A stretch of DNA of 64,000 nucleotides from Microbulbifer bruguierae. GTDB lineage: Bacteria > Pseudomonadota > Gammaproteobacteria > Pseudomonadales > Cellvibrionaceae. Positions 20,024 through 58,586 of this stretch are shown piece by piece (the first letter of the stretch is position 1; the number at the start of each line of letters is the position of its first letter). Position numbers and translations under genes: made by a program. The stretch is from the NCBI RefSeq assembly GCF_029869925.1, contig NZ_CP118605.1:2880001-2944000 (forward strand). Reading direction: 5' to 3'. Below the pieces are notes generated by a model that ran no database searches, was not told the origin of the DNA, and saw nothing but the letters and a program-made list of their open reading frames with translations.

Positions 20024-20093
20024 CTGTAGGAGCCTGCTTGCAGGCGAATGGCTCAGCGCACTGGACCGTTCGCCTGCAAGCAGGCTCCTACAG
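20024..20093. repeat. REP-like inverted repeat, copy 2 of family A
   Basis: The arms CTGTAGGAGCCTGCTTGCAG and its reverse complement (27 bp including GCGAA/TTCGC) are perfect and enclose about 16 bp. It starts 12 bp after the hslU stop and ends 22 bp before the DUF971 start. It may serve as an mRNA 3'-end structure for hslU. Confidence 0.9.
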
Positions 20094-20115
20094 GGTCGTT
20101 CACCCCGGAAACAAC

Positions 20116-20493: not shown

Positions 20494-20698
20494 GGCTGGA
20501 TCCGCCGTTTTGGTGTCCTCTCGCTGGACGCTCCCGCTCACCCTCGGTCACTTTCTCTCTTTCCTTACCCTCTTGATCCTCTTCCCATATCGGCGCCCAG
20601 CTACCGGTACTCAACCTCTCCGATTCCCGATTACTGCCGATGACCACATTTTTGCCATCCTCCGGTAACATGACTGGTCTTTAATGTGGGCTATTTGC

Positions 20699-26610: not shown

Positions 26611-26679
26611 TGTAGGAGCTTGCCTGCAGGCGGACCAGTGCGGAGCCTTGAACGGTTCGCCTGCAAGGCAGGCTCCTAC
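26611..26679. repeat. REP-like inverted repeat, copy 3 of family A
   Basis: TGTAGGAGCTTGCCTGCAGG and GCCTGCAAGGCAGGCTCCTA form imperfect arms around a loop of about 20 bp. It begins 18 bp after the ubiB stop, again directly behind a gene. Confidence 0.85.
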
Positions 26680-41402: not shown

Positions 41403-41528
41403 GTTCTCTATGATTTTTAGAGATTGTTGTTTCGACCGTATCCCTGGGCCGCAATACCCTGTCTGCGCTGATGTGTTTGCAGCCAGGGGTCTATAGTAAT
41501 GGCGAACGGTTTTGGCGCGGAGGTCACC

Positions 41529-42050
41529 ATGGCAAAGTTGCAACTAATTTGTGATGACATTCTCAATTTGCAGGGTGACGGATTGGTGTGTCCGGCACAT
41601 AAACACCTTATTCGCGGGCGTGGACTGTCGGCGCAGATCTATGACCGCGCCGGAAAAGCGTTAGTCAGTGAGTGCTTACAACAGCCGGAATGTGCCGTGG
41701 GAGAGGCGCGCCTTACCGGTGCACCGGGGTTGGCGGTGAGCTACCTGCTGCATACGGTAACCCCCCAGTGGAGCAGCGGCGACCAGTGGGGCGCTGAGGC
41801 CGTGGCCCAATTGCGCTGCTGCTACCGCAGCGTCCTGGCCCTGGCCCGGGCGCATGGGATGCGCCGGCTGCTGTTCCCGGCCCTGGGCGCCGGCACCAAC
41901 CGCTTTCCCCACCAGATCGCCGCGCACCAGGGGCTCGAAGTACTGCGCGAGGCACAGGACGACTTCGAGACACTCACCGTCTGTCTGCACAGCCCCGCCG
42001 CACTGGCCGAATGGCGCCAAGTCGACGCGCGTTTTTTTGGCCGCCGATAA
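41529..42050 (+). CDS. Macro-domain protein
   Basis: A 173-residue soluble protein from the ATG at 41529, preceded by GGAGG. It follows the macro-domain pattern: the start LQLICDDILNLQGDGLVCPA, a Gly-rich loop (GRGLSAQIYDRAG), CAVGEARLTGAPGL, and LLFPALGAGTNRFPHQIAA, which matches the phosphate-binding loop region. Macro domains bind ADP-ribose or remove it from proteins and O-acetyl-ADP-ribose. The usual NAD/NAAN motif reads CPAHKHL here, so binding residues deviate and enzyme activity is uncertain. The VIT-type gene follows after 27 bp. Confidence 0.8.
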   Translation: MAKLQLICDDILNLQGDGLVCPAHKHLIRGRGLSAQIYDRAGKALVSECLQQPECAVGEARLTGAPGLAVSYLLHTVTPQWSSGDQWGAEAVAQLRCCYRSVLALARAHGMRRLLFPALGAGTNRFPHQIAAHQGLEVLREAQDDFETLTVCLHSPAALAEWRQVDARFFGRR

Positions 42051-42077: not shown

Positions 42078-42833
42078 ATGAACGCTTCCAAACGCCGGCA
42101 ATTACAGCGTGAACACCGGCCGGAGAATATTGCGCGGCGGCTCGCAGAAACACCGCGGCCCCAGCGCCTGTCGGACATGGTGCTGGGGGGAATCGACGGC
42201 TGTATTACCACCTTCGCCATCGCTTCCGGCGCCTTCGGCGCAGGGCTTTCGCCACTGGTAGTGCTCGCCTTGGGCCTGGCCAACCTGCTGGCGGACGGCA
42301 TCAGCATGGCGGTGAGTAACTACGAAGCGGTCAACGCGCAGCAGCGCTTTGCCGACAACGCCCGACGTATCGAAGAGGAGCATATCCACCTGGTCCCCGA
42401 AGGGGAGCGCGAAGAAATCCGGCAGATATTTGCCAACAAGGGATTTAGCGGACAAAACCTGGAACATATCGTCGATACGGTAACCGCCAACCGCGGCTTG
42501 TGGATCGATACCATGCTGACGGAAGAGTACGGACTCAGCGGTACGCCCCCCGACCCGCTGGCCTCGGCCTGGTGGACATTTATTGCGTTTATTGTGGTCG
42601 GCGCCATTCCACTGCTGCCGTTTCTTGTTCCAGCGCTGGATTTTTCCCGCCAGTTTATCGTCAGTAGCCTGCTGGCAGCCCTGGTGTTTTTTTCCATAGG
42701 TTTGGTGAAAGGCTGGATCTATCACAGCTCTCCATTGCGTGCAGGGATGAAGACATTATTGCTGGGTGGTTGTGCGGCAGCGGTAGCGTATCTCGTCGGC
42801 AATGGAATGCAGCGGGCATTTGGCGCCATTTAG
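42078..42833 (+). CDS. VIT1/CCC1 family metal transporter
   Basis: A 251-residue protein. The N-terminal helix ends in LSDMVLGGIDGCITTFAIAS, the family signature of helix 1; GLANLLADGISMAVSNYEAV is helix 2. A cytoplasmic Glu-rich loop (about 92-150, ADNARRIEEEHIHLVPEGER) resembles the metal-binding domain, and three further helices follow. Eukaryotic relatives move Fe2+ or Mn2+ into vacuoles; bacterial forms probably export these metals. It is 27 bp after the macro-domain gene. Confidence 0.85.
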   Translation: MNASKRRQLQREHRPENIARRLAETPRPQRLSDMVLGGIDGCITTFAIASGAFGAGLSPLVVLALGLANLLADGISMAVSNYEAVNAQQRFADNARRIEEEHIHLVPEGEREEIRQIFANKGFSGQNLEHIVDTVTANRGLWIDTMLTEEYGLSGTPPDPLASAWWTFIAFIVVGAIPLLPFLVPALDFSRQFIVSSLLAALVFFSIGLVKGWIYHSSPLRAGMKTLLLGGCAAAVAYLVGNGMQRAFGAI

Positions 42834-43358: not shown

Positions 43359-43537
43359 TCCTCCCAAATATCACTCAGTGACCGCCGGGATCAGAGTCAT
43401 TGATTTTGCAACGGCATAAAGCTAGCTTGCTCTGAACGGTGTTTCATCGAGGAAGCTGGTGGCCGGTGCGCCCCACCGTGTTTCAACGATGTCGACGCTT
43501 TCGATTCGTAGAATTACCCAACAGGAATAATCGCCGT

Positions 43538-44101
43538 ATGAAATTATTTGGCAGCTACACGTCGCCTTTCGTGCGCCATTGTCGTATCGCCCTGATGCAG
43601 TCCGGACTCGACTGGGAAATGGTGGAGCTGGATATCCACACCAGCGAAAACCCGGGTACTCCGACGTTGCGCGTCCCTTTTCTGGAAGATGGTGAACGGA
43701 AGCTGACCGACTCCACACCGATTATTAAATATGTGCGTGAGAAATCCGACCAATCATTTATTCCCGATGTGCAGGATCTTGACCGCTACTGCCTTGCCAA
43801 CACTCTGCTGGATGCAGCGATCAATCTGTTCCTGCTGGAGCGCAGTGGTATTGATATCGATACCAATAAATACACCCGTCGCCAGCAACAACGTGTCGAA
43901 TTGGTGCTCAAGGAGCTTGATTCCGTAACGCTACCCACCTCCGGTGATTTGAGCGATGCGGATTACCGCGTGGCGGTCGCTGCAGCCTGGGGGCAGTTCC
44001 GCAACCGGTTTTCCATTGCGTCTCATGCCAATCTGCAACAGCTGCTGGAAATTGCCGGAAAGGACCCGGTTTTCGTTGCGACCGCGCCGCCAGCAGCGTA
44101 A
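43538..44101 (+). CDS. Glutathione S-transferase family protein
   Basis: A 187-residue protein from the ATG at 43538. The thioredoxin-like N-terminal domain has MKLFGSYTSPFVRHCRIAL and the cis-Pro/Ser segment TLRVPFLEDGERKLTDSTPI, which bind glutathione; the C-terminal part is helical. It is shorter than a typical 200-220 residue GST. Substrate unknown. Confidence 0.85.
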   Translation: MKLFGSYTSPFVRHCRIALMQSGLDWEMVELDIHTSENPGTPTLRVPFLEDGERKLTDSTPIIKYVREKSDQSFIPDVQDLDRYCLANTLLDAAINLFLLERSGIDIDTNKYTRRQQQRVELVLKELDSVTLPTSGDLSDADYRVAVAAAWGQFRNRFSIASHANLQQLLEIAGKDPVFVATAPPAA

Positions 44102-44892: not shown

Positions 44893-45624
44893 CTAGCTCA
44901 ATAGTTCCTGTAATCCCTTGGCGATATACACACTACTAACCAGCAGTATTACCGCGCTGCCAATGCGCTTGAAATGGTGATCGTGTATATGCACCAGCAG
45001 TATTTTTCCCATCACATTGCCGAAGATCGCTGCCGGAACCACGGCAAAAAACAGCCATTGCGGCAGTGAGATCGACAGATTCAGAAACATGGCGTAGTAA
45101 CCGAGCTTGATCACATGCCCAAGGGTCTGGGTGATCGCCTTGGTCCCAATGATTTGATGTCGGGTGAGAGAGCTCTTTACGTAGAACAGATCCAGCACCG
45201 GCCCGGAAACCCCGGCCAGCATTTGCGCCGTTGTTACCAGCAGACCGGCCACAAATGCGACCGGTTTACGGCGGATATCCGGAGCCATTTTATTGGGTAT
45301 CAACAGCGCGATAAACGGAAAGCTGCCGATCAACAGGAACATCACTCCCTTGCTGGGAACAAACGTCAGTATCAGAAACAGCAACAGGATCAGCAGCGAA
45401 CCGGCTGTGTAGGGCAAAAAAACATTCCACTGCACATGTCGCCGGTGTAGCCAGATACGCGAACCGTTGGACGCCGCCTGAGTAACTCCGTGCAAAACCA
45501 TTGCTGCGGGTACTGAAAGAAAAAATCCGAAAATCCCCATCAAAATCGAACCGCCGGCCATACTGAGTACGCCGGAGGTGAGGCTGGTAATCAGGGTTGC
45601 GACAATCAGAAGGAAGTAGGTCAT
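44893..45624 (-). CDS. TSUP (TauE/SafE) family permease
   Basis: A 243-residue protein with seven or eight hydrophobic helices and the TSUP repeat pattern near the start (SLTSGVLSMAGGSILMGIFG) and again after the middle (AGVSGPVLDLFYVKSSLTRH). Family members export or import sulfite, sulfonates or other organic anions. Context gives no substrate. Confidence 0.85.
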   Translation of the reverse strand: MTYFLLIVATLITSLTSGVLSMAGGSILMGIFGFFLSVPAAMVLHGVTQAASNGSRIWLHRRHVQWNVFLPYTAGSLLILLLFLILTFVPSKGVMFLLIGSFPFIALLIPNKMAPDIRRKPVAFVAGLLVTTAQMLAGVSGPVLDLFYVKSSLTRHQIIGTKAITQTLGHVIKLGYYAMFLNLSISLPQWLFFAVVPAAIFGNVMGKILLVHIHDHHFKRIGSAVILLVSSVYIAKGLQELLS

Positions 45625-45738
45625 TGGCCGCGCTCAGCGTTGCGATAGGTCTACTATAAATTTAATGACCGGCGGGATGGTATGACGGTGTGGTATGAAT
45701 GAGGCCAGATTCAATGACTTTGACCTCATTGAACGGAT

Positions 45739-46305
45739 TTAGAATCGGTAGCCAGTGCCCAGGAGAAATGCGACACCTACAGATTCGTCTTCGTAGGCTA
45801 CGCCCATGGTTTCAGCCTTGAGATAAAGCCCGGATGCGGTGCCGGACAGGGTAAAGCGGGCGCCGATACCCAAGGTTGTGCCGGTGCTGGTGTAAGATTC
45901 GGTATACGTAGGGACGCAGTAGTAATAGTCGTAGCAGCCGCCCTGGTAAGTGAATGTTTCCTCGATACTGCCGAGGCCGACTTTGCCATAGAGCCGGAAC
46001 CAGCCGGTGTTGAAGTCGTGGCCAATGTTGGCGCCGACATACTGGATATTCAACTCGTCATCATAGTCGCTCTCGCCGGAGGCGTATTTGACTTCGACAC
46101 CAACGATGTCGTTGAAGTCGTAACCGATCTCAAGGGCTTGGCCAGTGTATTCGCACTCGCTGCAGTCGGAGTTGGCCGCACTGAAAATGCCACCGCCGAT
46201 ATAAAAACCAGCGTCGTCAGAAAAATTTTGCTGTGCCTGTAGCGGAGCGGACAGGCAAAGCGCGCCCAGTACTGCCGAAGCAAGCTTGATTGCGGAAGCT
46301 TTCAT
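45739..46305 (-). CDS. Small outer-membrane beta-barrel protein
   Basis: A 188-residue protein from the ATG at 46305. A signal peptide ends near LQAQQ (about residue 24). The rest alternates as beta strands and ends in TGYRF, a C-terminal aromatic signal for BamA insertion. Cys-rich loops occur (SDCSECEY and GGCYDYYYCVP), which is unusual for such barrels and suggests disulfides at the surface. It resembles OmpA/OmpW-type eight-strand barrels. Function unknown. Confidence 0.8.
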   Translation of the reverse strand: MKASAIKLASAVLGALCLSAPLQAQQNFSDDAGFYIGGGIFSAANSDCSECEYTGQALEIGYDFNDIVGVEVKYASGESDYDDELNIQYVGANIGHDFNTGWFRLYGKVGLGSIEETFTYQGGCYDYYYCVPTYTESYTSTGTTLGIGARFTLSGTASGLYLKAETMGVAYEDESVGVAFLLGTGYRF

Positions 46306-46422
46306 AGGTAATTCCATTCTTTTTAGCTTTTGGGTATTTCAGGGGGCGGGATTTTGTCAGGTTTTGGGGCATTAGGCACGCGCGAACCTGCGGTTGGTGG
46401 TGTCCGAAACGCAGGGGAATAT

Positions 46423-46446
46423 AAAAAACGGGCCATCTGGCCCGTT
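46423..46446 (-). terminator. Terminator after the lyase gene, similar to the typA terminator
   Basis: AACGGGCCA TC TGGCCCGTT is followed on the minus strand by a T run. It resembles the typA terminator at 55749-55780 (both have an AACGGG(G)CCA..TGG(C)CCCGTT stem), and lies 16 bases beyond a decayed copy of the typA 3' end. Confidence 0.85.
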
Positions 46447-46461
46447 TCGAGTTGGAGAATG

Positions 46462-46505
46462 ATTTTTCGCGTGCTTGCGCATATTTTCCTGCCGAGTCTT
46501 CCTGC
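46462..46505 (-). pseudogene. Decayed copy of the typA 3' end
   Basis: Positions 46463-46505 align without gaps to 55801-55843, the end of typA, with 36 of 43 bases identical. In frame it reads RKTRQENMRKHAKN against [15 protein letters not shown] in TypA. The stop codon is lost. It has the same orientation and is followed by a similar terminator. It lies 35 bp after the lyase stop and is not part of any current gene. Confidence 0.75.
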
Positions 46506-46539
46506 AGGAAAAGTCCAGAAGCGCTGACTCTATCTGCAA

Positions 46540-47973
46540 TTACCGCGTAAAACCCTGGCGAATATCCGCTGCACGCGCGGTTTCACAATAGGCGATCACG
46601 GCGGTAACCTGCTGCTCGGCGAGGCCGGTGTAGGTACTGGGGTCAAACAGCCGATCCAGTTCGTTAGCGGTAAACAGATTGCCAAGATCTTCACTTTGCT
46701 CGATGGCAGCGCGCAGCCCGATACCGGTTTCTGTCGCCTCCAGCGCGAGTTCATGCAGGCGTGTATTGGCGGTGGTTTTACCGAGCTTTTCCGCCAGTGC
46801 GAAGGTGACCCGCTGGGACATGATCATACCGTTGGTTTTGTTCAGGTTTTCCGCCATCGCCGACGGATTCACTTTCAGGTTGCTCAGTAATTTTCTGGCG
46901 GTCTCCAGCATGTCGGAAAAATCGAGAGAAATTTCTGCGAGCAGGCGGTTGGTGTGGGAGGTGTTGTCCCGTTCAAACACGTTAACCATATCGTCGGTGA
47001 TGACTTCGGCGGTGCGGGGAATGCGGCGGGCGTGGAAAACCAGCGCTTCGGATTTACTGGGGTTTTTCTTGTGGGGCATGGTGCTGCTGCCCACGGCGGT
47101 GCTTACCCGCTGTTCCTCGGTTTCGCCAATGTCCGACATCTGCAGCAGAAATAGTTCGTTGCCGATACGCCCGTAGGATTTGCTGATTGCCGCGAGAATA
47201 TAGGCGTACTCCGCAATCACGTCGCGGGCGCCGTGCCAGTCGTCCGGGTAAGGCGCCTGCAGGCCAAGCTGCCGGGCAAAGTTTTTTTCCACCGCCATGC
47301 CCTGTTCGCCGAGACCGACATAACTGCCCACTGCACCTTTCAAAATGCCGGAGTGCTGCAAACGGGCATAGACCTGTTTGAGGCGTTCGATATTGCGGCG
47401 GTTTTCGCCCAGCCAGCCGCTGACTTTTTTGCCGAAGGTGATTGGCAGCGCGTGTTGCCCCAGGGTACGCCCCACCATAACGGTGCTTTTTTGCTCTTCC
47501 GCCAGCCGCATCATGATGGTTTCAAGCTCCCGCATCTGGGCTATCAAGGTGCGGGTAGCCGCGCTTAGCTGCAGCACCAGGGCGGTATCGTAGATATCCA
47601 CGGTGGTAGCGCCATAGTGCATGTATTCGGCGGCGCGGGGGTCCAGCGCGCGCTGCCAGACGTTGAGCAGCGCCACCATGCGGTGCCGCACCTTGTCGTA
47701 TTCCTGTGCCAGGTCCTGCTGACTCACGTAGCGGACATGGGCCTTTTCCCGTAGTTCTTTCGCCGCCCACCGGGGAATCATGCCCTCCTCCGCCTGCGCA
47801 GAGGCGAGCGCGGCTTCGATATCGAGGACCTTCTGGGTTTGGTATTCCGCAGAGAAAATTTCGTCGACCGAAAGGGTGTCTGGTTTGGTGCTCGCGGATT
47901 TTGTACTCGCGGTGGCGGCACTGGTCAGCCAGAGCAGTGCGCCGCCGATGAGCAGGGTACGGATGATCGCCAT
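46540..47973 (-). CDS. Signal-peptide-bearing lyase of the aspartase/fumarase superfamily
   Basis: A 477-residue protein. The first ~23 residues (MAIIRTLLIGGALLWLTSAA, then TAS) are a clear signal peptide, so it should act in the periplasm. Then follows a full superfamily lyase: EIFSAEYQTQKVLDIEAALA, MHYGATTVDIYDTA, GRTLGQHALPITFGKK and the signature GSSTMPHKKNP with catalytic Ser at 296/297. The motifs are closest to 3-carboxymuconate cycloisomerase and adenylosuccinate lyase. Enzymes of the superfamily usually release fumarate by beta-elimination and are cytoplasmic; export is unusual. It follows the DASS transporter after 58 bp, which suggests the product is imported. Confidence 0.85.
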   Translation of the reverse strand: MAIIRTLLIGGALLWLTSAATASTKSASTKPDTLSVDEIFSAEYQTQKVLDIEAALASAQAEEGMIPRWAAKELREKAHVRYVSQQDLAQEYDKVRHRMVALLNVWQRALDPRAAEYMHYGATTVDIYDTALVLQLSAATRTLIAQMRELETIMMRLAEEQKSTVMVGRTLGQHALPITFGKKVSGWLGENRRNIERLKQVYARLQHSGILKGAVGSYVGLGEQGMAVEKNFARQLGLQAPYPDDWHGARDVIAEYAYILAAISKSYGRIGNELFLLQMSDIGETEEQRVSTAVGSSTMPHKKNPSKSEALVFHARRIPRTAEVITDDMVNVFERDNTSHTNRLLAEISLDFSDMLETARKLLSNLKVNPSAMAENLNKTNGMIMSQRVTFALAEKLGKTTANTRLHELALEATETGIGLRAAIEQSEDLGNLFTANELDRLFDPSTYTGLAEQQVTAVIAYCETARAADIRQGFTR

Positions 47974-48031
47974 GGTGAATAGGGTTTCCTATGTCCGAAG
48001 GATACGAATTTTCGGTATGGTTTGACGGCCT

Positions 48032-49534
48032 TCAGTTCAAGAGGCGCGGCGCCCACTGAATCGCGACCAGGGTCAGCACCACCAGGCCGAACAGGTTCAG
48101 CGCGATACCGGCGCGCACCATCTGCGGAATGGTCAGCAGGCCGGAGGCGTACACGATGGCATTGGGTGGTGTGGCCACCGGCAGCATAAAGGCGCAGCTG
48201 GCAGCGAGGGTGACGGGTACGCACAGCAGCAGTGGCGAAATGTCCGCCTGCACGGCAATCGCGGCCACCGCCGGCAGGAAGGTGGCGGTGGTGGCGAGGT
48301 TGCTGGTGAGTTCGGTGAGAAAGATCACCAGTGCGGTGGCGGCGATCACCAGCGCAACCACACCGATTGCCGATACCAGTGACAGGCTTTCGCCGAGCCA
48401 GGCGGCGAGGCCGGATTCGGATACCTGAGCCGCCAGGCTGAGGCCGCCGCCAAACAGGATCAGCACGCCCCAGGGCAGTCGGCCTACATCGTGCCAGGTC
48501 ATCAGGTGCGGCTGCTTGTGGTCACCACTGGGCATCAGGAACAGCAACAGTGCCGCAATCATGGCGATCCCCGCGTCGGAAAGCCCCTCCAGCCCCAGCG
48601 CCGACGACAGCGGCCGGCGCAGCATCCACGCCAGCACTACCAGTGCAAATATGCTGGCCACCCGCGCTTCCGGGCGCGAGATGGGCCCCAGTTCGGCTTG
48701 CAGTTCTCGCAGGTGAGTCTTCACTTCCGCGCTCTCGGGGATCTCCACCCGGTATATCCAGCGGGTGAGCAGTAACCAGCCCGCCGGCAGCAGGATGGCG
48801 GCCACCGGCACACCCACCAGCATCCAGCGGGCGAAGCCGATCTCGATACCGTAGTTCTCGGTCATAAAAGCTGCCAGCAGGGCATTGGGCGGGGTGCCCA
48901 CCAGCGTCGCCAGGCCGCCGATGGTGGCGGCGTAGGCCAGTGCCAGCAGCATGGCGGTCTGGAACTGGGATTTGGCCTGCTCGGTCAGGCCCTGCACATG
49001 CTCCACAATGATGGCGGTCACCGAGATGGCGATGGGAAACAGCATCATGGTGGTGGAGGTGTTGGTCATCCACATGGACAGCAGTGCCGCCACCAGCATA
49101 AACCCGCCGATCATGCGCCGACCGTCGGTGCCAGTGCGGCTCAGGATCATCAGCGCGATGCGCTTGTGCAGGTTCCAGCGCTCCACCGCCAGCGCCAGTA
49201 CGAAGGCGCCCATAAACAGGTAGATGATGGGGTTGGCGTAGGGGGCGGCGGCCTCCTTGATGGAGGTGATGCCCACCAGTTCGAAGGTGGCGATGGGCAG
49301 CAGCGCGGTCACCGGAACCGGTACGGCTTCCGTGGCCCACCAGGCGGCCATCCACAGGCCGATGGCGGCCACCTTCCAGGCGACCGGGTTCATGGTGGTC
49401 TGGGCGTCGGCGAACAGCATCATCAGCGCAAACAGTGCCGGCCCCAGCAGCAGACCCACCGTCTGATAGCTGGGGTTCTGCAACCTGGCGGTGGACTCGG
49501 CTGAGAGGCTGGCCGGGCTCGAAGTATTGCTCAT
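48032..49534 (-). CDS. DASS (SLC13) family sodium:dicarboxylate transporter
   Basis: A 500-residue polytopic protein with about 11-12 hydrophobic segments. Both sodium/substrate signature loops are present: MTNTSTTMMLFP in the first half and TSNLATTATFLPAVAA in the second, as in VcINDY. Known substrates of the family are succinate, fumarate, malate, citrate or sulfate. Between the TonB receptor and the periplasmic lyase, import of a C4 dicarboxylate such as fumarate is the simplest idea. Confidence 0.92.
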   Translation of the reverse strand: MSNTSSPASLSAESTARLQNPSYQTVGLLLGPALFALMMLFADAQTTMNPVAWKVAAIGLWMAAWWATEAVPVPVTALLPIATFELVGITSIKEAAAPYANPIIYLFMGAFVLALAVERWNLHKRIALMILSRTGTDGRRMIGGFMLVAALLSMWMTNTSTTMMLFPIAISVTAIIVEHVQGLTEQAKSQFQTAMLLALAYAATIGGLATLVGTPPNALLAAFMTENYGIEIGFARWMLVGVPVAAILLPAGWLLLTRWIYRVEIPESAEVKTHLRELQAELGPISRPEARVASIFALVVLAWMLRRPLSSALGLEGLSDAGIAMIAALLLFLMPSGDHKQPHLMTWHDVGRLPWGVLILFGGGLSLAAQVSESGLAAWLGESLSLVSAIGVVALVIAATALVIFLTELTSNLATTATFLPAVAAIAVQADISPLLLCVPVTLAASCAFMLPVATPPNAIVYASGLLTIPQMVRAGIALNLFGLVVLTLVAIQWAPRLLN

Positions 49535-49615
49535 GGAAAGAATCTCGAAATACGCGGTGTGCTGTGCCGCCCGCGCCGGTGTCCTACCGGGGCGGGGGCC
49601 AGTCAGGGTAAAGGC

Positions 49616-52615
49616 TTAGAAGCTCGATCTCAGGCTCAGGTAGTAATAGCGGCCATAGTCGCTGTGGGCATCGGAGAAGAAGCCGAAGTAGCCGTCCGCC
49701 AGGGGCGCGCGTTCGTCGGTCAGGTTTTTCACACCCAGGCGCACGCGGTTACTCGCCCCGGCGTAGTCGAAGCGGTAATCGACGGTGGCGTCGTAGGTGG
49801 TCATCGATGGCAGCCAGTAGCGGGTGCCATCTTCCAGGGTCAGGTCTTCGTCATAGAAGCGACCGACACTGTAGCCGCCCAGGGATGCGCCGAAGCGGTC
49901 GTAGCGCCAGGTCAGGGTCAGCGAGTGACGCTCTTTCTGATTGCCGTTCTTCTGGATCAGGTCGGCGAAGCCCGCCACCGGGAAGTTACCGGGGATTCCA
50001 CCGCTGGCCTGGGCATCCACCAGCAGCAGGGCATCGCCACCGGCTTCCTGATCGAATTTGGTCAGGTGTGAGCCGTTGTACTTGAGGCTGAACTCACCAA
50101 AGTCGGTGGACAGGTCATAGTAGACACCCAGGTCGTAGCCCTCGAGGGTACGGGTATCCAGGTTGGCGTAGTTGTCCTCTACGTAGGCAATGTCGCCGGC
50201 GGCACAGATGCCGGCCGCTTCATAGATAGCCGCTTCGTCCAGGCCCACCTCGTCGCGCACAACCGCACTGTTGCCGACCCCATCGCAGTTGCCGTTACCG
50301 GCTTGCAGGCGATAGTAGAGATCCAGCAGGGTGTGGTTTTCCTCACCCAGCAGGCCGATGGTGTTTTCCTTCTCGATACTCCAGAAGTCCACGGTCATGG
50401 TCAGGCCATCCATCGGCGTGAACACCAGACCCAGGGACGTGTTGGTGGACTCCTCCGCTTCAAGGTCCACGCTGCCCTGAGCGATGCGCTGGATATTGTT
50501 TTCGCAGTCCAGTACATCCTGGCCCGGGTCGCCGCCGTTCTCGGCCGCGTACACACAGGCCCAGTCAATGCGGGTGTTGTTGCGCGCAACAATCTCCTCG
50601 TTGATGGTCACCATGTTCGGTGCGCGGAAGGCCTCGGACCAGGAACCGCGCAGCAACAGCGATTCAACCGGGCGGTAACCAAAGGCCACCTTGCCCACGG
50701 TGGTATCGCCGAAATCGGAGAAGTCCTCGTAGCGCAGCGCCAACTGCAGGTCGAAGTTGTCGAACACCGGTACCTGCAGTTCGCCGAACAGGGAGGTCAC
50801 CGAGCGGTCGCCGCGGTTGTCCGGTGTCGGGCTGGAGTTCACCACGTCGGACACGTAGGGATAGGTATCGCCATCGGCATCGGTGAACACGATGGTGCCG
50901 TCGAGACGGGGGTCGCGGTCGTCCACGAAGGACTCCTCGCGGTACTCAAACCCCGCCAGCGCCGCCACCGGGCCGGCGGGCAGGTTGAACAGGTCGTTGT
51001 TGGAGAATTTCACGTCGAAGCTTTTCAGCTCGCTCTTGCTGTCGCGGCGCACGTCGACCAAAGCGCGCTCGATATTGCTGTTCACGCCCCCGCTCAGCGG
51101 GTTGTACGCAGCCTCGGTAGGATCGTTGAGGGCTTCCTGCATCAGCAGGTTGGAAACGCGGTTGTGGGTGACGTCGCTTTTCTCGTCGCGGTTCCAGAGT
51201 ACAGCGGTATCCCAGTCCCAGTTGCCCAGGCTGCCGCGCAGGCCTTGCAGCAGACGGATATTCTCGCCGTCGTTGTCGATGATCCGGGGCACTTCCGCAA
51301 AGCGGTAATTGTCCAGGGTCATGTCGACACCCCAGGGGTTGTAGTAGTTGTCGGCGCCAAAGATCAGTTTGGACGCGGTGAAGGATGCCGCCGGGTGGGC
51401 GCGCTTGTTGGTGCTGGAGCGGTAGTAACCGATCTCGGAGAAGCTCTCGATACCGTTGCCCAGGTCGTGATTCACAAACACGAACAGGTTGTTGCGCTCG
51501 AGTTGCGAGCTCACATCGCGGAATTCGTTGAGGTTGTAGCGCACCGTGCCCTGGCCGTCGACGGCGCCGCACACCTGGTCATTGATGGCGTACTCGCAGC
51601 GCTCGTCGCCCACCGGGTAGACCTCAAGTTCGCCACTGCCGTCGGTGATGCCATCGAGACGGCCCGAGTCCACCATATCCAGCTGCGGGTACAGGGAGTT
51701 GGCGCTGTCGTTACGGAACGCGGTATCGCCGTACCAGGGGGAGTCTTCCGGCACCAGCTCCATCAGATCGGAATTCGCCCAGCGCGAATCCTCGGAAGCG
51801 GTGATGCGGTCCCGTCGGTAATGGCTGAAGAAAGTGCTTACATTGGTGCGGCCCTCGTTGAAGGTCTCGCCCCACTCGATGCTCAGGTTCTGGGCATCGC
51901 GTTCGAAGTGATCGTATTCGGTCTGCTTGAAGGAAATGCTGAAGCCCTCGAAATCGCTCTTCAGCACATTGTTCACCACCCCGGCTACCGCATCGGCGCC
52001 ATAAATGGCGGAGGCGCCGTCGCGCAGCACTTCCACCCGCGCCAGCCCGGAGGTCGGCAGCATGTTTGAGTTGACGGTTACCACCGGCACAAAACTGCCG
52101 CCGATTTCTTCTGTCTGGTAGGCCGCGGCGTTCACCACGCGGCGACCGTTCAGCAGCACCAGAGTGTTGCCGGTCCCCAGATTGCGCAGGTTAAAGGCGC
52201 CGATATCACCGCGCGCCGCATTCACCCCACCACTCAGGGTTTCCGCCTCATTGAAAAAGTTTTGCCCGTTCTCGGGGATCATGGCGAGCAGTTCGTCGCC
52301 GGAGTCGACGCCAAGAACTTCGATATCGTCGGCGCTGATTACCGATACGGCCAGAGCTTCATTGATCTTGGCACCCTTGATCTGGGTGCCGACCACCGAT
52401 ACTTCTTCCAGTGACTGCTCTTTACCGACACTCTTTGTGGCGGATGTTTGCTTGCTGTCGCCGGCGGCCTGGTCCTGAATGGCCAGGGCCAGCGGGCTCA
52501 ACAGCATGCCCGAAATCAGGCCGATACCTGACATCGCGCCGAAGGAGCGCTTGAGGCGCGGTTGGGATATCGCTGTTCTATGATCGGCTTTTAGGCTCAT
52601 GGCGTTTTTGCTCAT
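49616..52615 (-). CDS. TonB-dependent outer-membrane receptor
   Basis: A 999-residue protein. A long signal peptide ends near PLALA (residue 45). A TonB-box-like EEVSVVG is at 70-76. The plug follows with DIGAFNLRNLGTGNTLVLLNG, GLARVEVLRDGASAIYGADA, and a C-terminal barrel ending YYYLSLRSSF. There is no room for an STN signalling domain before the plug, so it should not signal directly to a FecR protein. It belongs to the large receptors common in marine polymer and peptide scavengers. Ligand unknown. Confidence 0.94.
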   Translation of the reverse strand: MSKNAMSLKADHRTAISQPRLKRSFGAMSGIGLISGMLLSPLALAIQDQAAGDSKQTSATKSVGKEQSLEEVSVVGTQIKGAKINEALAVSVISADDIEVLGVDSGDELLAMIPENGQNFFNEAETLSGGVNAARGDIGAFNLRNLGTGNTLVLLNGRRVVNAAAYQTEEIGGSFVPVVTVNSNMLPTSGLARVEVLRDGASAIYGADAVAGVVNNVLKSDFEGFSISFKQTEYDHFERDAQNLSIEWGETFNEGRTNVSTFFSHYRRDRITASEDSRWANSDLMELVPEDSPWYGDTAFRNDSANSLYPQLDMVDSGRLDGITDGSGELEVYPVGDERCEYAINDQVCGAVDGQGTVRYNLNEFRDVSSQLERNNLFVFVNHDLGNGIESFSEIGYYRSSTNKRAHPAASFTASKLIFGADNYYNPWGVDMTLDNYRFAEVPRIIDNDGENIRLLQGLRGSLGNWDWDTAVLWNRDEKSDVTHNRVSNLLMQEALNDPTEAAYNPLSGGVNSNIERALVDVRRDSKSELKSFDVKFSNNDLFNLPAGPVAALAGFEYREESFVDDRDPRLDGTIVFTDADGDTYPYVSDVVNSSPTPDNRGDRSVTSLFGELQVPVFDNFDLQLALRYEDFSDFGDTTVGKVAFGYRPVESLLLRGSWSEAFRAPNMVTINEEIVARNNTRIDWACVYAAENGGDPGQDVLDCENNIQRIAQGSVDLEAEESTNTSLGLVFTPMDGLTMTVDFWSIEKENTIGLLGEENHTLLDLYYRLQAGNGNCDGVGNSAVVRDEVGLDEAAIYEAAGICAAGDIAYVEDNYANLDTRTLEGYDLGVYYDLSTDFGEFSLKYNGSHLTKFDQEAGGDALLLVDAQASGGIPGNFPVAGFADLIQKNGNQKERHSLTLTWRYDRFGASLGGYSVGRFYDEDLTLEDGTRYWLPSMTTYDATVDYRFDYAGASNRVRLGVKNLTDERAPLADGYFGFFSDAHSDYGRYYYLSLRSSF

Positions 52616-52729
52616 GGTATGTACCTGTTATTTTTTTAATTGTGAGTGCTCGGATAGCACCGCCGGGGTACCTCTAACCCTTAACAACGCATGAGACAGG
52701 GAAAACCCCTACTAAGCGGAAACGGAAAT

Positions 52730-53227
52730 TCAGTCGCTAATGAATCCCGGGCGGGTGGGGGTGGGAGATTGATTGAGGGGAATATGTTGCTGCGGGGTGT
52801 GTTTTTGCACTGTCGCAGGCTTGGATGTTGCCGGGTTGTGAATACCGAAACCGAGGCCCACAGCGATCAGTAACAGCACTGCAATGGCCTGCCAATTGGC
52901 CCGGCGCGACGGTGATGGCCACACATCGGTGGCCGGTGCCCCGGTAACCGGCGGTGGGGTTTGCGGAAAAAGAAATACCTGGGGCGCATCGATCTGTCCC
53001 CGCACTTGTGACAGGGTGGCAGTGCGGGCATAGAGTTGCGACAGCTCTTCAAATGCCCAGCGGTGCAGTGGATCTTCATCCAGCCACACAGACAGGCGCT
53101 GGCGTTCATCCAGCGAGACGTGATCGGCATCCAGGCGCGCCAGCCAGGCTGAGGCCTGGTCCATCACCTCGTCGGGAATGCCGATACAGAGCCACTCATC
53201 CAGCTGCAACGTCTTGATCCTTCTCAT
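52730..53227 (-). CDS. Shortened FecR-like anti-sigma factor
   Basis: A 165-residue protein; the ATG at 53227 overlaps the sigma gene by 32 bp, an ATG at 53164 is also possible. The N-terminal part (about 20-70: MDQASAWLARLDADHVSLDE then LSVWLDEDPLHRWAFEEL) is the DUF4880 sigma-binding domain. A membrane helix is at 112-129. Only ~35 Pro/Thr-rich residues remain on the periplasmic side, so the FecR domain that contacts the receptor is missing. It may hold the sigma factor without a receptor signal, or respond otherwise. Confidence 0.8.
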   Translation of the reverse strand: MRRIKTLQLDEWLCIGIPDEVMDQASAWLARLDADHVSLDERQRLSVWLDEDPLHRWAFEELSQLYARTATLSQVRGQIDAPQVFLFPQTPPPVTGAPATDVWPSPSRRANWQAIAVLLLIAVGLGFGIHNPATSKPATVQKHTPQQHIPLNQSPTPTRPGFISD

Positions 53228-53846
53228 GTTGGAGGGTGGATTGAGATGGGCATTCCGCTCCCCGGCCGGTGTTTCTCAGTTGCACGATATGCTCGCGACA
53301 CAGGCGCATGCCCCGCGCCAGGTGATTTTCCACGGTCTTTGCGGAAACCCCCAGCACTGCGCTGATCTGGCTGTGGGGCATACCGTCGATTTTGCGCATG
53401 ACGAAGACCTGGCGGCACTTTGGTGGCAGCGCATTGATGGCCGAAATCAGCAACGCCTGCTCCTGATCCCGGCTGGCCTGGTCCTCTACATCATTGTGAT
53501 TCTGCTCCGGGGACATCACCAGTTGCAGGTGGCCACCGTGTTGTGACGCCATTTTCTGGTGCCGCAGATGACTGATGGCAAGGTTCCGGGCCACTCGGAA
53601 CAGGAAGGCGCGCGGTTCAGGCGCCCGTTTTTCCCTCAGCGCCTGCAGCAGTTTCAGGTAGGCTTCCTGCAGCACTTCTTCCGCCTGCGCAGGCTCGAGC
53701 ATACGGCACAGACTGGCCAGCAGCTGCTTGCGGGTATCGGTGTGAATCTGGTCCAGTAACTGCAGAATTTGCGCTTCTCCCTGCGGATCGGATCCACGGG
53801 GCGCGAACAGGCTGAGACGCAGCTGGGGAAAAAAGCTATTCGACAT
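53196..53846 (-). CDS. ECF-type RNA polymerase sigma factor, FecI-like
   Basis: A 216-residue protein with sigma region 2 (about 35-105: EEVLQEAYLKLLQALRE and PRAFLFRVARNLAISHLRHQ) and region 4 (about 135-190: LPPKCRQVFVMRKIDGMPHS then VSAKTVENHLARGM). An extra His/Gln-rich stretch (about 105-130) joins them. It is coupled by overlap to a FecR-like gene and is followed by a TonB receptor, the classical iron-starvation-type order. It probably drives the receptor, transporter and lyase genes. Confidence 0.9.
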   Translation of the reverse strand: MSNSFFPQLRLSLFAPRGSDPQGEAQILQLLDQIHTDTRKQLLASLCRMLEPAQAEEVLQEAYLKLLQALREKRAPEPRAFLFRVARNLAISHLRHQKMASQHGGHLQLVMSPEQNHNDVEDQASRDQEQALLISAINALPPKCRQVFVMRKIDGMPHSQISAVLGVSAKTVENHLARGMRLCREHIVQLRNTGRGAECPSQSTLQHEKDQDVAAG

Positions 53847-53942
53847 GGGTAATTATTCGTTGTTATTTTGTCGTTAAGCCGGTGTATTGCTACGGCCCGA
53901 AAACCTTAGCACGTTCTTTGCCGCAAAAGGAAACCGCAAACC

Positions 53943-54716
53943 TTGAAAACTCTGATCATTACCTCGCTGGTAATTTTTTTCTGCGGATGTGTCGCCCAGT
54001 CGACCATTCCCACGTTTCCGGATCCAGAACTCAAACGTGCACAGGTCACCCCAGGCACGGTGTACCGCGCGATCGAAATTGAAAATGCATTGAATGCAAA
54101 AAATGGAGAACTGCTAGAAGCGGGCGCGCCGTGGTTTGAAGTCATTCCGGGGCGAATTCCCGTTGTTATCACCGCACCGCACGCCACGCGCCCACTGCGT
54201 GATGGCAACCGGCGCTTTTCCGATGGCGGCGGCACCGCGGCGCTCGCGCTCGCGGTGGCGGAGCTGACCGGTGCCCACGTCATTTACACCACCGCCGAGG
54301 GACCATCGGACCCCAATTACTACGACGACAATGGTTTCAAGCGCGCCTTGAAACAGCTGGTCGACGAGGTTGAACCGAAACTGGTGCTGGATATCCACGG
54401 CAGCCACCCGTTCCGTCCCTACGATGTGGATCTGGGCACTATGGGCGGTACTTCACTGCTGGGGCAGGAAAATATGCAGCGGCAGCTTGTCGAGAGCCTG
54501 CGCCATGAAGGCATCCTGAATATTTCCGACAATTTTTTTGCGGCGACAAAAAACCAGACCATTACCAAATTTGTCGCGGCCTATGAAACGCCCGCAATCC
54601 AGTTCGAAGTGAACACTACTTACCTGTCACCAGCAAAGGGTGATATCGAAGCGCAACGGTTTTCCCAGTTGCTGCAGGCGTTAGTGCGGTTTGTGGATAT
54701 TGTGCAGCGGGATTGA
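53943..54716 (+). CDS. N-formylglutamate amidohydrolase-like lipoprotein
   Basis: A 257-residue protein with a TTG start. The N terminus is a signal peptide with FCGC, a weak lipobox (Cys16). The rest looks like the N-formylglutamate amidohydrolase fold: VVITAPHATRPLRDGNRR, GGTAALALAVAELTGA, then KLVLDIHGSHPFRP with metal ligands, and AIQFEVNTTYL. The family cleaves N-formyl or related amides and acts as zinc enzyme. Export is unusual for it. It diverges from the sigma gene, with 96 bp between them. Confidence 0.75.
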   Translation: MKTLIITSLVIFFCGCVAQSTIPTFPDPELKRAQVTPGTVYRAIEIENALNAKNGELLEAGAPWFEVIPGRIPVVITAPHATRPLRDGNRRFSDGGGTAALALAVAELTGAHVIYTTAEGPSDPNYYDDNGFKRALKQLVDEVEPKLVLDIHGSHPFRPYDVDLGTMGGTSLLGQENMQRQLVESLRHEGILNISDNFFAATKNQTITKFVAAYETPAIQFEVNTTYLSPAKGDIEAQRFSQLLQALVRFVDIVQRD

Positions 54717-54853
54717 TGTTTCGGGGCGAGGAGGAGACCGGAAATCAGCGAAGTTTCTGGAATCGCAGAACCAATGACTCTGATCCCATTGAAAAAGCGA
54801 GCCTCAGGTGAGGCTTGCTTTTTACCGAATTCAGGGCTGAGTAATTCTAAATA

Positions 54854-55372
54854 CTAACGTTCAATACAATGTGGTCGATTTAAAGATTCGCAGTGCTGAG
54901 CCAGCCTTTGCATTTCATCGATATGGTTACAAGATGCGGCTTTAGCATATTGCTTTGTCAAAGCGAGGCCTTCCTCGGTTTTATAGGGGACCGGGACTGT
55001 TCGCTCTTCGCCATAGCCGCAATTGAATGCGTATTGGTAGTGACGATAACCTTCAGAGTTGACCTCACTATTGCCACTGTTCACTGGTTGTTTGTTGGTG
55101 CTAAAACTGTGTACGTCAGCAAAAGAATCTAAATCCATTGCGGGCTGATGGCTGGTCCCTGACTGGACTACCGACATGGTCGCCCGTGCCGCTAGCTCCC
55201 CGCCTACGGCCGGATCTATACCTGCATCTGCGGCGCCAGCTACAACGGCAAGGCCCGCAAGCCCTCCAGCAACCCACTTCATGCCATCCTCTCCTTCCGG
55301 TAATAACGCTCCACACCCGGAAGTTGCAATAGTAATAGAGGATATAAAGACCCCAGTAATTAGCTTGTTCAT
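54854..55372 (-). CDS. Lipoprotein of unknown function
   Basis: A 172-residue protein from the ATG at 55372. The signal peptide ends in lipobox TSGC (Cys20). A Gly/Ala-rich segment (about 34-58: WVAGGLAGLAVVAGAADAGI) resembles glycine-zipper envelope proteins. The C-terminal half has four Cys (FNCGYGEE, ASCNHID, QHCES, PHCIER) that could form two disulfides. It is not recognised. The gene and the gap after it are visibly lower in GC than the neighbours. Confidence 0.65.
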   Translation of the reverse strand: MNKLITGVFISSITIATSGCGALLPEGEDGMKWVAGGLAGLAVVAGAADAGIDPAVGGELAARATMSVVQSGTSHQPAMDLDSFADVHSFSTNKQPVNSGNSEVNSEGYRHYQYAFNCGYGEERTVPVPYKTEEGLALTKQYAKAASCNHIDEMQRLAQHCESLNRPHCIER

Positions 55373-55748
55373 TTTTAGCATTTCCCCCCAATTTTTTTCA
55401 AATACAGAAATATCGTTTTGTGCTTGTAGATGGCTTGTGTACGGATTTTTTGATCGAAAGATCGGAATTGATTTTTTGTTTTACAAGTACTGCTTGGTCA
55501 ACTTTTTGTTTTGTCACTAGCCTGCGTCGCGCCGGATCTTATATAAGTGGGCAATGGCGTGCAATGCGCCAAAAGGGCGTGTCTCAACGTGTCGGATATC
55601 GTCTGTTTTTTAGGATTAGGAATTATTTTTAGTAAATCTATTTTTGCGGGAATGAAAGTCTGCTTAACAAGAAGGGAGGTCGTAGTGCTTTGAGCAGCCA
55701 TATAGAAATGAGGATTATTTTCGCAGGACAGCTCATTTTTTTACTCCA
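55373..55748. other. AT-richer gap of about 380 bp between the lipoprotein gene and the typA terminator
   Basis: I see no gene. The stretch 55391-55530 is unusually T-rich and the rest mixed. It lies immediately inside the typA end of the proposed inserted block. A short segment near 55540-55600 has paired CGTG/CACG-like motifs but does not make a clear attachment site or integron attC. Confidence 0.4.
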
Positions 55749-55780
55749 TAAAAAAACGGGGCCAATTGGCCCCGTTTTAT
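55749..55780 (-). terminator. Terminator after typA
   Basis: AACGGGGCCA and TGGCCCCGTT form a perfect 11-bp half-palindrome stem (AACGGGGCCAA/TTGGCCCCGTT) and seven T residues follow on the minus strand. It is 20 bp beyond the typA stop. A similar one is at 46423-46446. Confidence 0.9.
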
Positions 55781-55796
55781 ATTGCTTGCGAAGAAA

Positions 55797-57605
55797 TTAC
55801 TTCTTCGCGCGCTTGCGCATGTTTTCCTGCAGGATCTTCTTGCGGATCCGGATGCTTTCCGGGGTCACTTCCACCAGTTCGTCGTCTTCGATGAACTCCA
55901 GCGCCTGCTCCAGGGTGTGACGGATGGGCGGTGACAGGGTCAGCGCGTCGTCGGTACCGGAAGCGCGCACGTTGGTGAGCTGCTTGGCCTTGGTGGGGTT
56001 TACCACCAGGTCATTGCCGCGGGAGTGGATGCCGACTACCTGGCCTTCGTAAACTTCCTCACCGTGGCCCAGGAACAGGCGGCCGCGGTCTTGCAGTGCG
56101 AACAGGCCGTAGGCCAGGGTTTTGCCCTTGACCATGGACACCAGTACGCCGTTGATACGCTTGGCCACGTCGCCCATCTTCACCGGACCGTAATGGTCGA
56201 AGATGCTGGTCATGATGCCGGAGCCGCTGGTGATGGTGAGGAACTGGTTGCGGAAACCGATCATGCCACGGGACGGTACGATAAAGGTCAGGCGCACGCG
56301 GCCCTTGCCGTCCGGCTCCATGTTGGTGAGGTCAGCTTTACGCAGACCCAGCTCTTCCATGATCGGACCCTGGTGCTGTTCTTCTACGTCGATCACTACC
56401 TGCTCGTAGGGTTCCTGCACTTCGCCATCGACGATCTTCTGTACTACTTCCGGGCGGGATACACCCAGTTCGAAGCCTTCGCGACGCATGGATTCGATCA
56501 GTACCGACAGGTGCAGTTCGCCGCGGCCGGATACTTTGAATTTGTCCGGGGAGTCACCCTGCTCTACACGCAGTGCCACGTTGTGGATTAGTTCCTGCTC
56601 CAGGCGATCCTTGATGTTGCGGCTGGTAACGAACTTGCCTTCTTTACCGGCAAACGGCGAGTCGTTCACCTGGAAAGTCATGCTTACGGTGGGCTCGTCC
56701 ACGGACAGCGCCGGCAGCGCTTCCGGGTGTTCCGGGTTACACAAGGTGTCGGAAATGTTCAGCTCACCCACACCGGTAATACACACGATGTCACCGGCGC
56801 TGGCCTGTTCCACTTCCACGCGCTCCAGGCCCAGGTAACCCATGACCTGCAGCACCTTGGCTTTGCGGGACTTGCCTTGGCTGTCGAGGATCACGACCTG
56901 CTGGTTCGGCTTCAGGGTACCGCGGGTGATACGGCCAACGCCGATGACACCGACGTAGCTGTTGTAGTCCAGCGCAGAGACCTGCATTTGGAAAGGACCT
57001 TCACGGTCTACCTGCGGCGGCTTTACCTTGTCGACGATCATCTGGAACAGCGGGGTCATGTCTTCCGCCATATCGGTGTCGTCGAGACCGGCGATACCGT
57101 TCAGGGCGGAAGCGTAGACTACCGGGAAGTCCAGCTGCTCGTCAGTGGCACCGAGGCTGTCAAACAGGTCGAATACCTGGTCCATGACCCAGTCCGGACG
57201 CGCACCCGGGCGGTCGATCTTGTTGATCACCACGATCGGGTTCAGGCCCTGCTCGAAGGCCTTGGAGGTTACAAAGCGGGTCTGCGGCATGGGGCCGTCT
57301 ACCGCGTCCACCAGCAGCAGTACCGAGTCCACCATGGACAGTACGCGCTCTACCTCACCGCCGAAGTCGGCGTGTCCGGGGGTGTCGACGATGTTGATGC
57401 GGTAGTCATTCCAGCGGATGGCGGTGTTCTTGGCCAGGATGGTGATGCCGCGCTCTTTTTCCTGATCATTGGAGTCCATCACCCGCTCGGAGTCGGCGCT
57501 GCGGCGGTCCAGGGTGCCGGACTGGGACAGCAGCTTGTCGACCAGGGTGGTCTTGCCGTGGTCAACGTGGGCGATGATCGCAATATTGCGCAAATTCTCT
57601 ATCAC
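55797..57605 (-). CDS. typA: Translational GTPase TypA/BipA
   Basis: A 602-residue protein from the GTG at 57605 (E. coli TypA has 607). The GTPase motifs are AHVDHGKT (about 10-17), the RGITI switch, DTPGHADF (G3), NKID (G4); EF-G-like domains III and V follow, then the TypA-specific C-terminal domain ending RKRAKK. It binds ribosomes and aids 50S assembly at low temperature and stress. Its last codons have a decayed second copy at 46462-46505. Confidence 0.96.
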
Positions 57606-58586
57606 TGGGGGCCTCTGGGGGTAATGCGTGACTGGGTGTGCACTAGTTGGGCACACCGCGAAAATTAGGTACAGGCGGGGCTGTGCTGAGATTGGGAACA
57701 GCGGCTATCCGGCCAAAGCGCGCGCATTATAGAGGCGAACCGTGACAATTGGGAGTTGATTTGGCGGAAATTTGTGCGATTTGCTGCTGTCACGTTCCGA
57801 TAGATGTTATCGGCAGCGCATATTAGTACCGGTTTTCCTTCGGGTAATAATGAAAATAAAAAGAGGGCTTGGCACCGGTTTCCCGCGACTGCCAGGAGGT
57901 TGGATGACTAGTCGCGATTTTGCCGCGGTCTAGGAAGTTTTGAAACGTTCGCGAACCGGCTCCCGGACGTTCGCCAATCCCAGAATGAGGCAGTAAGGGC
58001 CATTGGACTATTCAGTCGCGATCTCGGCAAACTTTTAGCCGAGATTGGCACCGCACCCAGTTCTACCCCGCCCCGAGCTAGGACTCGAAATCACACATGT
58101 CCCTATATGAGGCATACAGAAAACGGATGAGGGATATTGCGTCAATTTGCGCCAAATAGTATAAATCGGCGAAAAATGTGTGATGCATTTATCACGCACG
58201 AAGGAAGAGGCGCGCCGCATCCATAGTGGTCGCGGACTTATCTCTCCCCCCTCATGCTGGTCGCGGCTGGGGTGCGGTTTTCACTTCATTCTGAAGCACA
58301 GAAGTAATCCGAATATGGCCATGGTGTCCAGAGGTGCGAATTGCCCTGTGGGTATTGTTCGTGGAATCACCAGCTCCAAGTTCTGTGCGGATTTTCTCGG
58401 CAACTTCTCATGTGCCGGGTTGTGCCTGTTATTTTGCAATGACGATTTCGGTGACTCCAACGAACGGAAGTTGCCGGAGCTGGCGCTGCAATAAATAAGG
58501 GTTTTCCCTGAAATCTCTTTTCTGGAAAAGAGAAAGCTTACTCAAACATTTACCGTGAACAATGCAATTCGAGTGCAAATAAAAAT
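57606..58586. other. 981-bp intergenic region upstream of typA
   Basis: I see no convincing gene. It should contain the leftward typA promoter and the rightward promoter of the GloVer lipoprotein. A hairpin ATCTCGGC / GCCGAGAT occurs at 58021-58045 with a 9-base loop. A 104-codon open frame at 58180-58494 has no recognisable protein character. The long non-coding length is unusual for this dense region and could hide a small RNA. Confidence 0.4.

Follow-up and report, generated by a model that had tools for sequence, protein, structure and literature searches.

A displaced typA 3′ end beside an uptake operon in Microbulbifer bruguierae, and probable recurrent insertions behind typA in the genus

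Introduction

Integrative elements and genomic islands of the tyrosine-integrase type insert at the 3′ end of tRNA genes or of conserved protein genes. Horizontal transfer also occurs at integrase-less chromosomal hotspots between core genes, and many known hotspots without integrases leave, to our knowledge, no trace of how their genes entered. Integron gene cassettes are small units without a recombinase of their own, and homology-facilitated illegitimate recombination is known from laboratory transformation. Here we describe a locus in Microbulbifer bruguierae that resembles each of these systems in part. It lies in a 64,000-nucleotide stretch of contig NZ_CP118605.1 (assembly GCF_029869925.1, positions 2,880,001 to 2,944,000), hereafter the window, in whose own numbering all coordinates are given. 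Within it, the 3′ end of typA (bipA), the gene for a conserved translation GTPase, occurs a second time at the far side of a 9.3-kb block of other genes. A first-pass annotation, made from the letters of the window, had read this block as a mobile element that entered the end of typA, rebuilt it at one junction, pushed the old end to the other, and either lost its integrase or was mobilized in trans.

Results

The displaced typA end is real, and it is one case of a genus-wide pattern. typA itself is intact (55797-57656, minus strand), an open reading frame (ORF) that matches TIGR01394 at 952 bits above the cut-off. Its resident 3′ end (55801-55843, minus strand), located by pairwise match and by a degenerate-pattern scan, is identical to a second copy in the same orientation (46463-46505, minus strand) at 36 of 43 bases (84%), which reproduces the match first reported. 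This second copy, here called the scar, was recovered by the pairwise match, core scans, a profile and a gene-end scan, and looks, from a ranking of typA ends, to be the older of the two. A palindromic terminator follows each copy in the direction of typA, again as first noted: 55753-55778 (AAAACGGGGCCAATTGGCCCCGTTTT) behind the resident end and 46426-46447 (AAACGGGCCATCTGGCCCGTTT) behind the scar, both in plus-strand letters. The resident palindrome, ACGGGGCC/GGCCCCGT, has a stem type common to genomes G024, G008, G058 and G020 (the handles are ours) and different from that of G019; the ACGGGCC/GGCCCGT stem beyond the scar is the type of G019, G061 and G066. When gaps are allowed, the similarity of the scar to typA ends extends through its terminator (nhmmer E 1.4e-11, profile positions 44-137, with a profile that contains the window's own typA end).

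The similarity was compared with chance expectation in several ways. A degenerate 29-mer that we built from both copies, with up to 3 mismatches allowed, matches the window exactly twice, at the two copies, and gives no match in 100 shuffles of the window. In local alignment the scar copy scores 29, against 12 for the best of three shuffles of the window's own query; over 40 loci, all shuffled queries score 17 or less, and the best reverse-strand score is 18. With up to 2 mismatches allowed, a 20-base core is present just twice in the whole genome of M. bruguierae, in typA and in the scar copy, and the 43-bp similarity survives the genome-wide chance test that had been proposed for it. Across 48 genomes of the genus, the same core with at most 1 mismatch is found outside typA only in G000, G019 and G036, in each case on the typA strand and 2.5-9.3 kb downstream of typA; a dispersed repeat was rejected on the basis of this confinement to three typA-downstream sites. 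Two-mismatch matches elsewhere in the genus genomes are a few fixed sequences that recur and look like other conserved genes.

Gene-end scans addressed the specificity for typA. Among 676 gene ends scanned in 864 kb of the M. bruguierae genome around the window, typA has the sole clean displaced tail. It is one of 12 rows within 20 kb, and the remainder were set aside: five fall in another same-strand ORF and are paralogues, three are on the opposite strand, one is the same-strand member of a repeat that occurs in both orientations, one adjoins a masked stretch, and the last, at a distance of 3.3 kb, is a degenerate permease paralogue (E 0.002). A wider scan took in 71 regions, selected for the most part because they lie downstream of typA, and 1264 gene ends; it returned a displaced same-strand copy for 6 typA ends of at most 65 (those of the window, G019, G009, G060, G063 and G055). 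The hits for other genes are paralogues, or same-strand copies outside ORFs in G005 (85 bp, 94%, found elsewhere too and in both orientations), G006 (in repeat-rich sequence) and G039 (37 bp away), which on our own reading are dispersed or local repeats. Separately, the window holds a small-gene end (20053-20541) that is repeated about 6.6 kb off (26611-26679) in both orientations, in the manner of a dispersed repeat.

Displaced ends recur behind typA in other members of the genus. The genus set comprised 48 genomes, reduced to 47 by the exclusion of G007, which has no good typA match; the typA-downstream stretches compared are 16.8-19.0 kb each, save for 1.6 kb in G065. A nucleotide profile drawn from these 47 genomes, which spans the final 90 bases of typA and 55 bases downstream, detects displaced ends downstream of typA in 8 of the 47 at E ≤0.003, seven of them at E <1e-5: G019 (1e-27), the window (1.4e-11), G063 (1.5e-11), G009 (3e-10), G060 (3e-10), G031 (1e-6), G036 (2e-6) and G061 (0.003). 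The best match in the reversed-sequence control has an E of 6.5, and weaker profile matches (E 0.025-7.8), several of which are a terminator alone just past the first cargo gene, were left out. The first-pass annotation had proposed a search for other islands at the typA 3′ end; scars of the same type do recur there, with at least four different cargos. Between typA and the scar lie a TonB receptor of family c18 in G031, G060 and G063, a chitinase in G009 and G036, an amidohydrolase with a phosphonate-binding protein in G019, three small genes in G061, and an operon in the window. Scar length is about 38-60 bp in three cargo groups (window, c18 and chitinase c22), 297 bp in G019 and 157 bp in G055. 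Up to 930 typA bases were compared with each genome's own downstream region in search of a fuller second typA remnant, and this candidate was rejected, no more typA sequence being found before the scars.

Outside the genus, a scar is present in 1 of 29 downstream regions, that of G055, a member of another family, where 166 bp match at 90% some 8.5 kb downstream; this count excludes an 18-base match in G046 and minus-strand matches in G040, G107 and G140. A 103-residue query from the typA C-terminus, run against 135 genomes of the order, likewise found a second fragment only in G055, in a type of search that 50-bp scars escape. Some further features of these loci were observed in passing. In G019 (L031), a second, partial amidohydrolase copy is truncated right beside the scar; the two copies, about 721-1121 and 2216-2604 bp past the typA stop, are 74% alike at the DNA level. 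In G055 (L151), a low-GC (guanine plus cytosine), array-like run of small genes in one direction occupies 1.4-7.3 kb past typA, before the displaced tail; one of the small genes ends in NKALHRPSR, which we take to be an integron-cassette-like ending, and the run is followed by what by eye look like a transposase fragment and a pseudouridine synthase gene. The c18 TonB receptor also stands behind typA with its own GCGCCCC terminator and no detected scar at L041 (G032), L052 (G034) and L055 (G021); typA of G032 clearly retains its own terminator as well. This scarless arrangement may represent a different insertion route.

The typA 3′ flank varies strongly across the genus, as in a hotspot. A macro-domain or GGDEF flank is found within the compared stretch in 42 of the 47 genomes, at a distance from typA that ranges from 60 bp to 16.5 kb, and the content between typA and these flanks is highly variable. 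Besides the operon in the window, it includes the c18 TonB receptor, the c22 GH18 chitinase, a sulfate permease, an amidohydrolase, a C39-like peptidase and an Lcl_C protein of 1235 residues. In 7 of the 42, typA lies less than 300 bp from the next core gene, and in G066 it is followed directly by the GST, VIT and macro genes, the genes that lie further left in the window. Uninterrupted typA sites therefore exist at this locus in relatives, and the absence of any empty site, which would have spoken against an insertion, does not hold for the locus as a whole. The exact junction that the first-pass annotation proposed to look for, at which typA would border the beta-barrel and TSUP genes that lie beyond the scar in the window, was not found in any genus relative, because the beta-barrel gene (45739-46317) is without a match among the other 47 genomes of the genus; for the same reason this gene may be a later or separate insertion of its own. 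Among the compared regions, a TSUP gene is found downstream of typA only in G002, there behind other genes.

The relative age of the two ends was approached by aligning seven scars, that of G019 left out, to the 47 intact typA ends of the genus. The window's scar matches best the intact end of G019 (score 109.5), the nearest relative of the window by typA (5.6% over 873 bp), and the intact end of its own genome ranks only 16th of 47 (93.5). The own-genome end likewise ranks 18th for G063, 27th for G060, 27th for G031 and 18th for G061; in the two chitinase genomes, G009 and G036, it ranks 3rd and 2nd. Six relatives within a typA distance of 0.11 have terminators other than the c18 type: the stem is ACGGGCC in G019, G061 and G066, CGGGCCC in G027 and G001, and ACGGGGCC, the resident type of the window, in G024. 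ACGGGCC is also the stem in the scars of the window, G063 and G031, and the scar of G060 is close to it. These ranks and stems make the scar look inherited and the resident end the more recent of the two. The displacement described in the first-pass annotation is thus retained in outline—a rebuilt typA 3′ end in place, and an older end at the far side of the block, as ranks, relatives and recurrence suggest—and its mobile element with a lost integrase is not. With the c18 cargo, the terminator behind typA is the TonB receptor gene's own, so c18 does not separate the models. A mosaic comparison along typA placed the window closest to G019 from -600 to -60; in the earlier stretch G063 comes first with G019 a close second, and the last 60 bp are too short for a nearest relative to be assigned.

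Searches for integration machinery near typA were negative. A tyrosine recombinase profile was made from 30 members found in the genus, a 21-member version of which recovers 9 of 9 held-out members. This homemade 30-member profile, on which the absence of an integrase near typA rests, has no match at E ≤1 in six-frame pieces of 51 typA-downstream regions (47 of the genus) and of the window. The M. bruguierae genome has five PF00589 genes, none of them inside the window. Serine recombinases occur in 17 of the 48 genus genomes, not in that of M. bruguierae, and in none of the 48 within 80 kb of typA on its contig (some lie on other draft contigs). No transposase, phage or conjugation domain was detected in the cargo proteins scanned. 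Nor do the seven scars have a cargo-side arm in common between different cargos: the 125-bp flanks are alike only in G060-G063 and G009-G036, pairs with the same cargo, the flank of G031, also a c18 genome, is unlike those of G060 and G063, and all other pairs fall within the shuffled range. With no recombinase of either kind beside typA in the window or its relatives, no shared arm and varying scar lengths, the lost-integrase element finds no support. Three other origins for the repeat were tried and rejected: the typA-tail core has one match in viral contigs, within a long ORF that by eye is not typA; no Rfam family exceeds its cut-off in 45000-57000; and the window contains no tRNA that could have served as a target.

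The block itself carries a candidate uptake operon, preceded on the typA side by two less readily named genes. Reading from typA, these are a small protein of 175 residues (54854-55381, minus strand), first labelled a lipoprotein, which has no family match in Pfam or NCBIfam scans and no match in the other 47 genus genomes, and a conserved protein of 257 residues (53943-54716, plus strand), first labelled amidohydrolase-like, for which Pfam and NCBIfam likewise give no family; in five of the six relatives with the block, homologues of the latter (64-73%) lie next to the sigma gene. The other first-pass labels stand. The block continues, all on the minus strand, with an ECF sigma factor (53196-53846; PF08281/PF04542; 59-64% in six relatives), a FecR-like regulator recognised by its DUF4880 N-terminus only (52730-53227), a TonB-dependent receptor (49616-52615; PF00593, PF07715; 76-79% in six relatives), a DASS family anion symporter (48032-49534; TIGR00785; 84-86% in six relatives) and a lyase of the fumarase/aspartase superfamily (46540-47973; PF00206, PF10397), in the group of 3-CMLE, adenylosuccinate lyase and trans-aconitate decarboxylase. 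The nearest solved structure to the lyase is 1q5n (E 1.2e-57), and the nearest ones include 3-carboxymuconate cycloisomerase and trans-aconitate decarboxylase. As a guess, the block serves a di- or tricarboxylate, or else a metallophore with subsequent cleavage. The region nearest typA (54854-55796) is AT-richer, with a GC content of 0.50 in the 175-residue orphan gene and 0.40 between it and typA, against 0.59 for the window. Beyond the scar follow the outer-membrane beta-barrel gene (45739-46317, minus strand; PF13505), a TSUP (TauE/SafE) permease gene (44893-45624, minus strand; PF01925) and, on the plus strand, the GST-like gene (43439-44101), whose homologue comes directly after typA in G066, the VIT family gene (42078-42833), whose homologue is next in line there, and the macro-domain gene (41499-42050), the core flank of the hotspot in the comparison across the genus.

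The gene order sigma, FecR-like, TonB receptor, DASS, lyase is found again at other loci, away from typA, in 6 of 47 relatives (G016, G018, G021, G027, G035 and G060); this occurrence elsewhere concerns the window's block among the cargos. Within the M. bruguierae genome, the sole high-identity lyase match among those listed is the one at typA, and in the named genome collection a relative of the lyase was found only in Microbulbifer litoralis GXH0434. The block lies about 340 kb from typA in G035, in G018 and, if its single contig is circular, in G027. This suggests that a home locus about 340 kb from typA (L133, L135, L136) is older, and that the copy in the window's lineage moved, or was replaced, from there.

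Discussion

The typA 3′ flank is best read as a recurrent insertion hotspot in the genus Microbulbifer. As to how the window's cargo came to lie there, we give an even chance to a combination of recombination within typA and a non-homologous far junction, by which a segment with the uptake operon would have been joined behind a typA 3′ end. A segment with the sigma, FecR-like, TonB receptor, DASS and lyase genes would have reached the window's lineage already attached to a typA 3′ end and its terminator. The incoming linear DNA, taken up for example through transformation, may then have recombined homologously within typA, and at its other end a non-homologous junction would have formed with the resident typA, some 48-60 bp ahead of the stop. 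typA would in this way have stayed intact, and the old tail and terminator would remain as a decaying scar. We infer these steps from an arrangement in which a complete typA stands on one side of the segment and a second tail on the other, and in which that tail and its terminator are closer to the intact ends of relatives than to the resident end. Unrelated cargos are found elsewhere in the same kind of arrangement, and the searched regions yielded no recombinase.

Several observations weigh against this proposal. The score differences in the end ranking are modest, and in the chitinase genomes the own ends rank so high (3rd and 2nd of 47) that old and new end are not separated there. No mosaic is apparent inside typA, where recombination would be expected to have taken place. 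The scars of the window, c18 and chitinase c22 groups start nearly alike, at about -38 to -60 depending on the alignment, which random junctions do not predict. None of the genus genomes showed the exact empty site, with the beta-barrel gene next to typA. ComEC and DprA are present in the M. bruguierae genome and lend weak support to DNA uptake, as these genes are widespread and occur also in bacteria not known to be competent.

The clustered starts would fit a site-specific alternative, in which a tyrosine recombinase, lost or acting in trans, would use an attachment site (attB) about 48 bp before the typA stop, the elements would carry a replacement end, and the scar would be the attR side. 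We hold this to be doubtful but tenable. It would explain the attL/attR topology at the 3′ end of a conserved gene, the nearly equal scar start in three cargo groups and the striking specificity for typA. A single crossover point, however, accommodates starts at about -38 to -60 and misfits those at -297 in G019 and -157 in G055. The 51 regions (47 of the genus) hold no tyrosine recombinase match and the surroundings of typA no serine recombinase, the seven scars show no common cargo-side arm, and phage and conjugation domains are absent from the cargo proteins scanned. The common start in three groups would also follow if a single ancestral scar had formed once, with later homologous exchange between typA and scar swapping the cargos and tail-to-tail recombination restoring uninterrupted sites; the direct repeats would be able to recombine, and cargo at the site does vary strongly. 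Such a history is, in our estimate, decidedly improbable. Each of the seven scars matches some intact typA end better than it matches other scars, which favours separate origins; a raised scar-to-scar score is seen only for G060 and G063, which have one cargo in common; and the genes beyond the scar differ between genomes as well. Since no recombinase and no shared arm were found, and given the apparently separate origins of the scars and their clustered starts, we rank homologous plus non-homologous joining first, a trans-acting site-specific system second, and cargo exchange at an ancestral scar third.

Two further accounts dispense with an incoming typA end altogether. In one, a staggered break or a transposition would have produced a long target-site duplication of the typA tail, both copies being derived from the resident gene. 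This yields the direct-repeat topology directly and would allow the terminator behind typA to be the receptor gene's own, as it is with c18, yet we think it very unlikely: the window's copies carry different typA-type terminators, the end of the nearest relative fits the scar best and the resident end does not (by small score differences), the cargo proteins scanned have no transposase domain, and target duplications of 50-300 bp are unusual for transposition. The other would see in the 43-bp similarity mere chance or convergence of gene ends, unrelated to any insertion. Its shortness and the missing exact empty site could be cited in favour of this, but the shuffles, the whole-genome core scan, the nhmmer profile and the scans of 1264 and 676 gene ends leave it almost no room, and in our view they refute it.

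A broader and more speculative interpretation treats the end of typA as a dedicated docking site. Unrelated single genes and operons without a recombinase would be added there repeatedly, each with a typA tail and terminator of its own and all at one junction some 50 bp ahead of the stop. We consider this unlikely on present evidence; if true, it would mean that there is a cassette pathway, trans-acting or driven by homology, that differs from both integrons and integrase islands. The decaying copies of the typA end mark entry points, and the mechanism, order and relative age of insertions may therefore be readable across the genus. Outer-membrane or substrate-acquisition functions are represented by several of the cargos, namely TonB receptors, a chitinase, a phosphonate-binding protein and an uptake operon, alongside others of no assigned use. 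The typA site may therefore be a place at which niche genes can be exchanged without harm to a conserved translation GTPase.

Set beside the described systems, the typA case belongs with insertions that lie behind a conserved gene and rebuild its end; what sets it apart is that the cargos are unrelated and that no recombinase was found. As in integrase islands, the gene end is rebuilt at one junction and the old end moved to the other, with cargo between, and direct repeats of the 3′ end stand at both borders; by contrast, no recombinase was found inside the element and no integrase nearby, the scars vary in length, and those compared have no shared arm. The typA site resembles integrase-less hotspots in its variable gene content, which takes up anything from 60 bp to 16.5 kb before the macro/GGDEF pair is reached, although insertions at typA leave a recognisable displaced core-gene end. 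Homology-facilitated illegitimate recombination offers the same combination of one homologous anchor, one non-homologous junction and foreign DNA added beside the anchor, whereas the case at typA is read from old scars and its junctions cluster. Integron cassettes, finally, are likewise small cargo units without their own recombinase, but the cargo at typA includes a whole operon and sits behind a protein gene.

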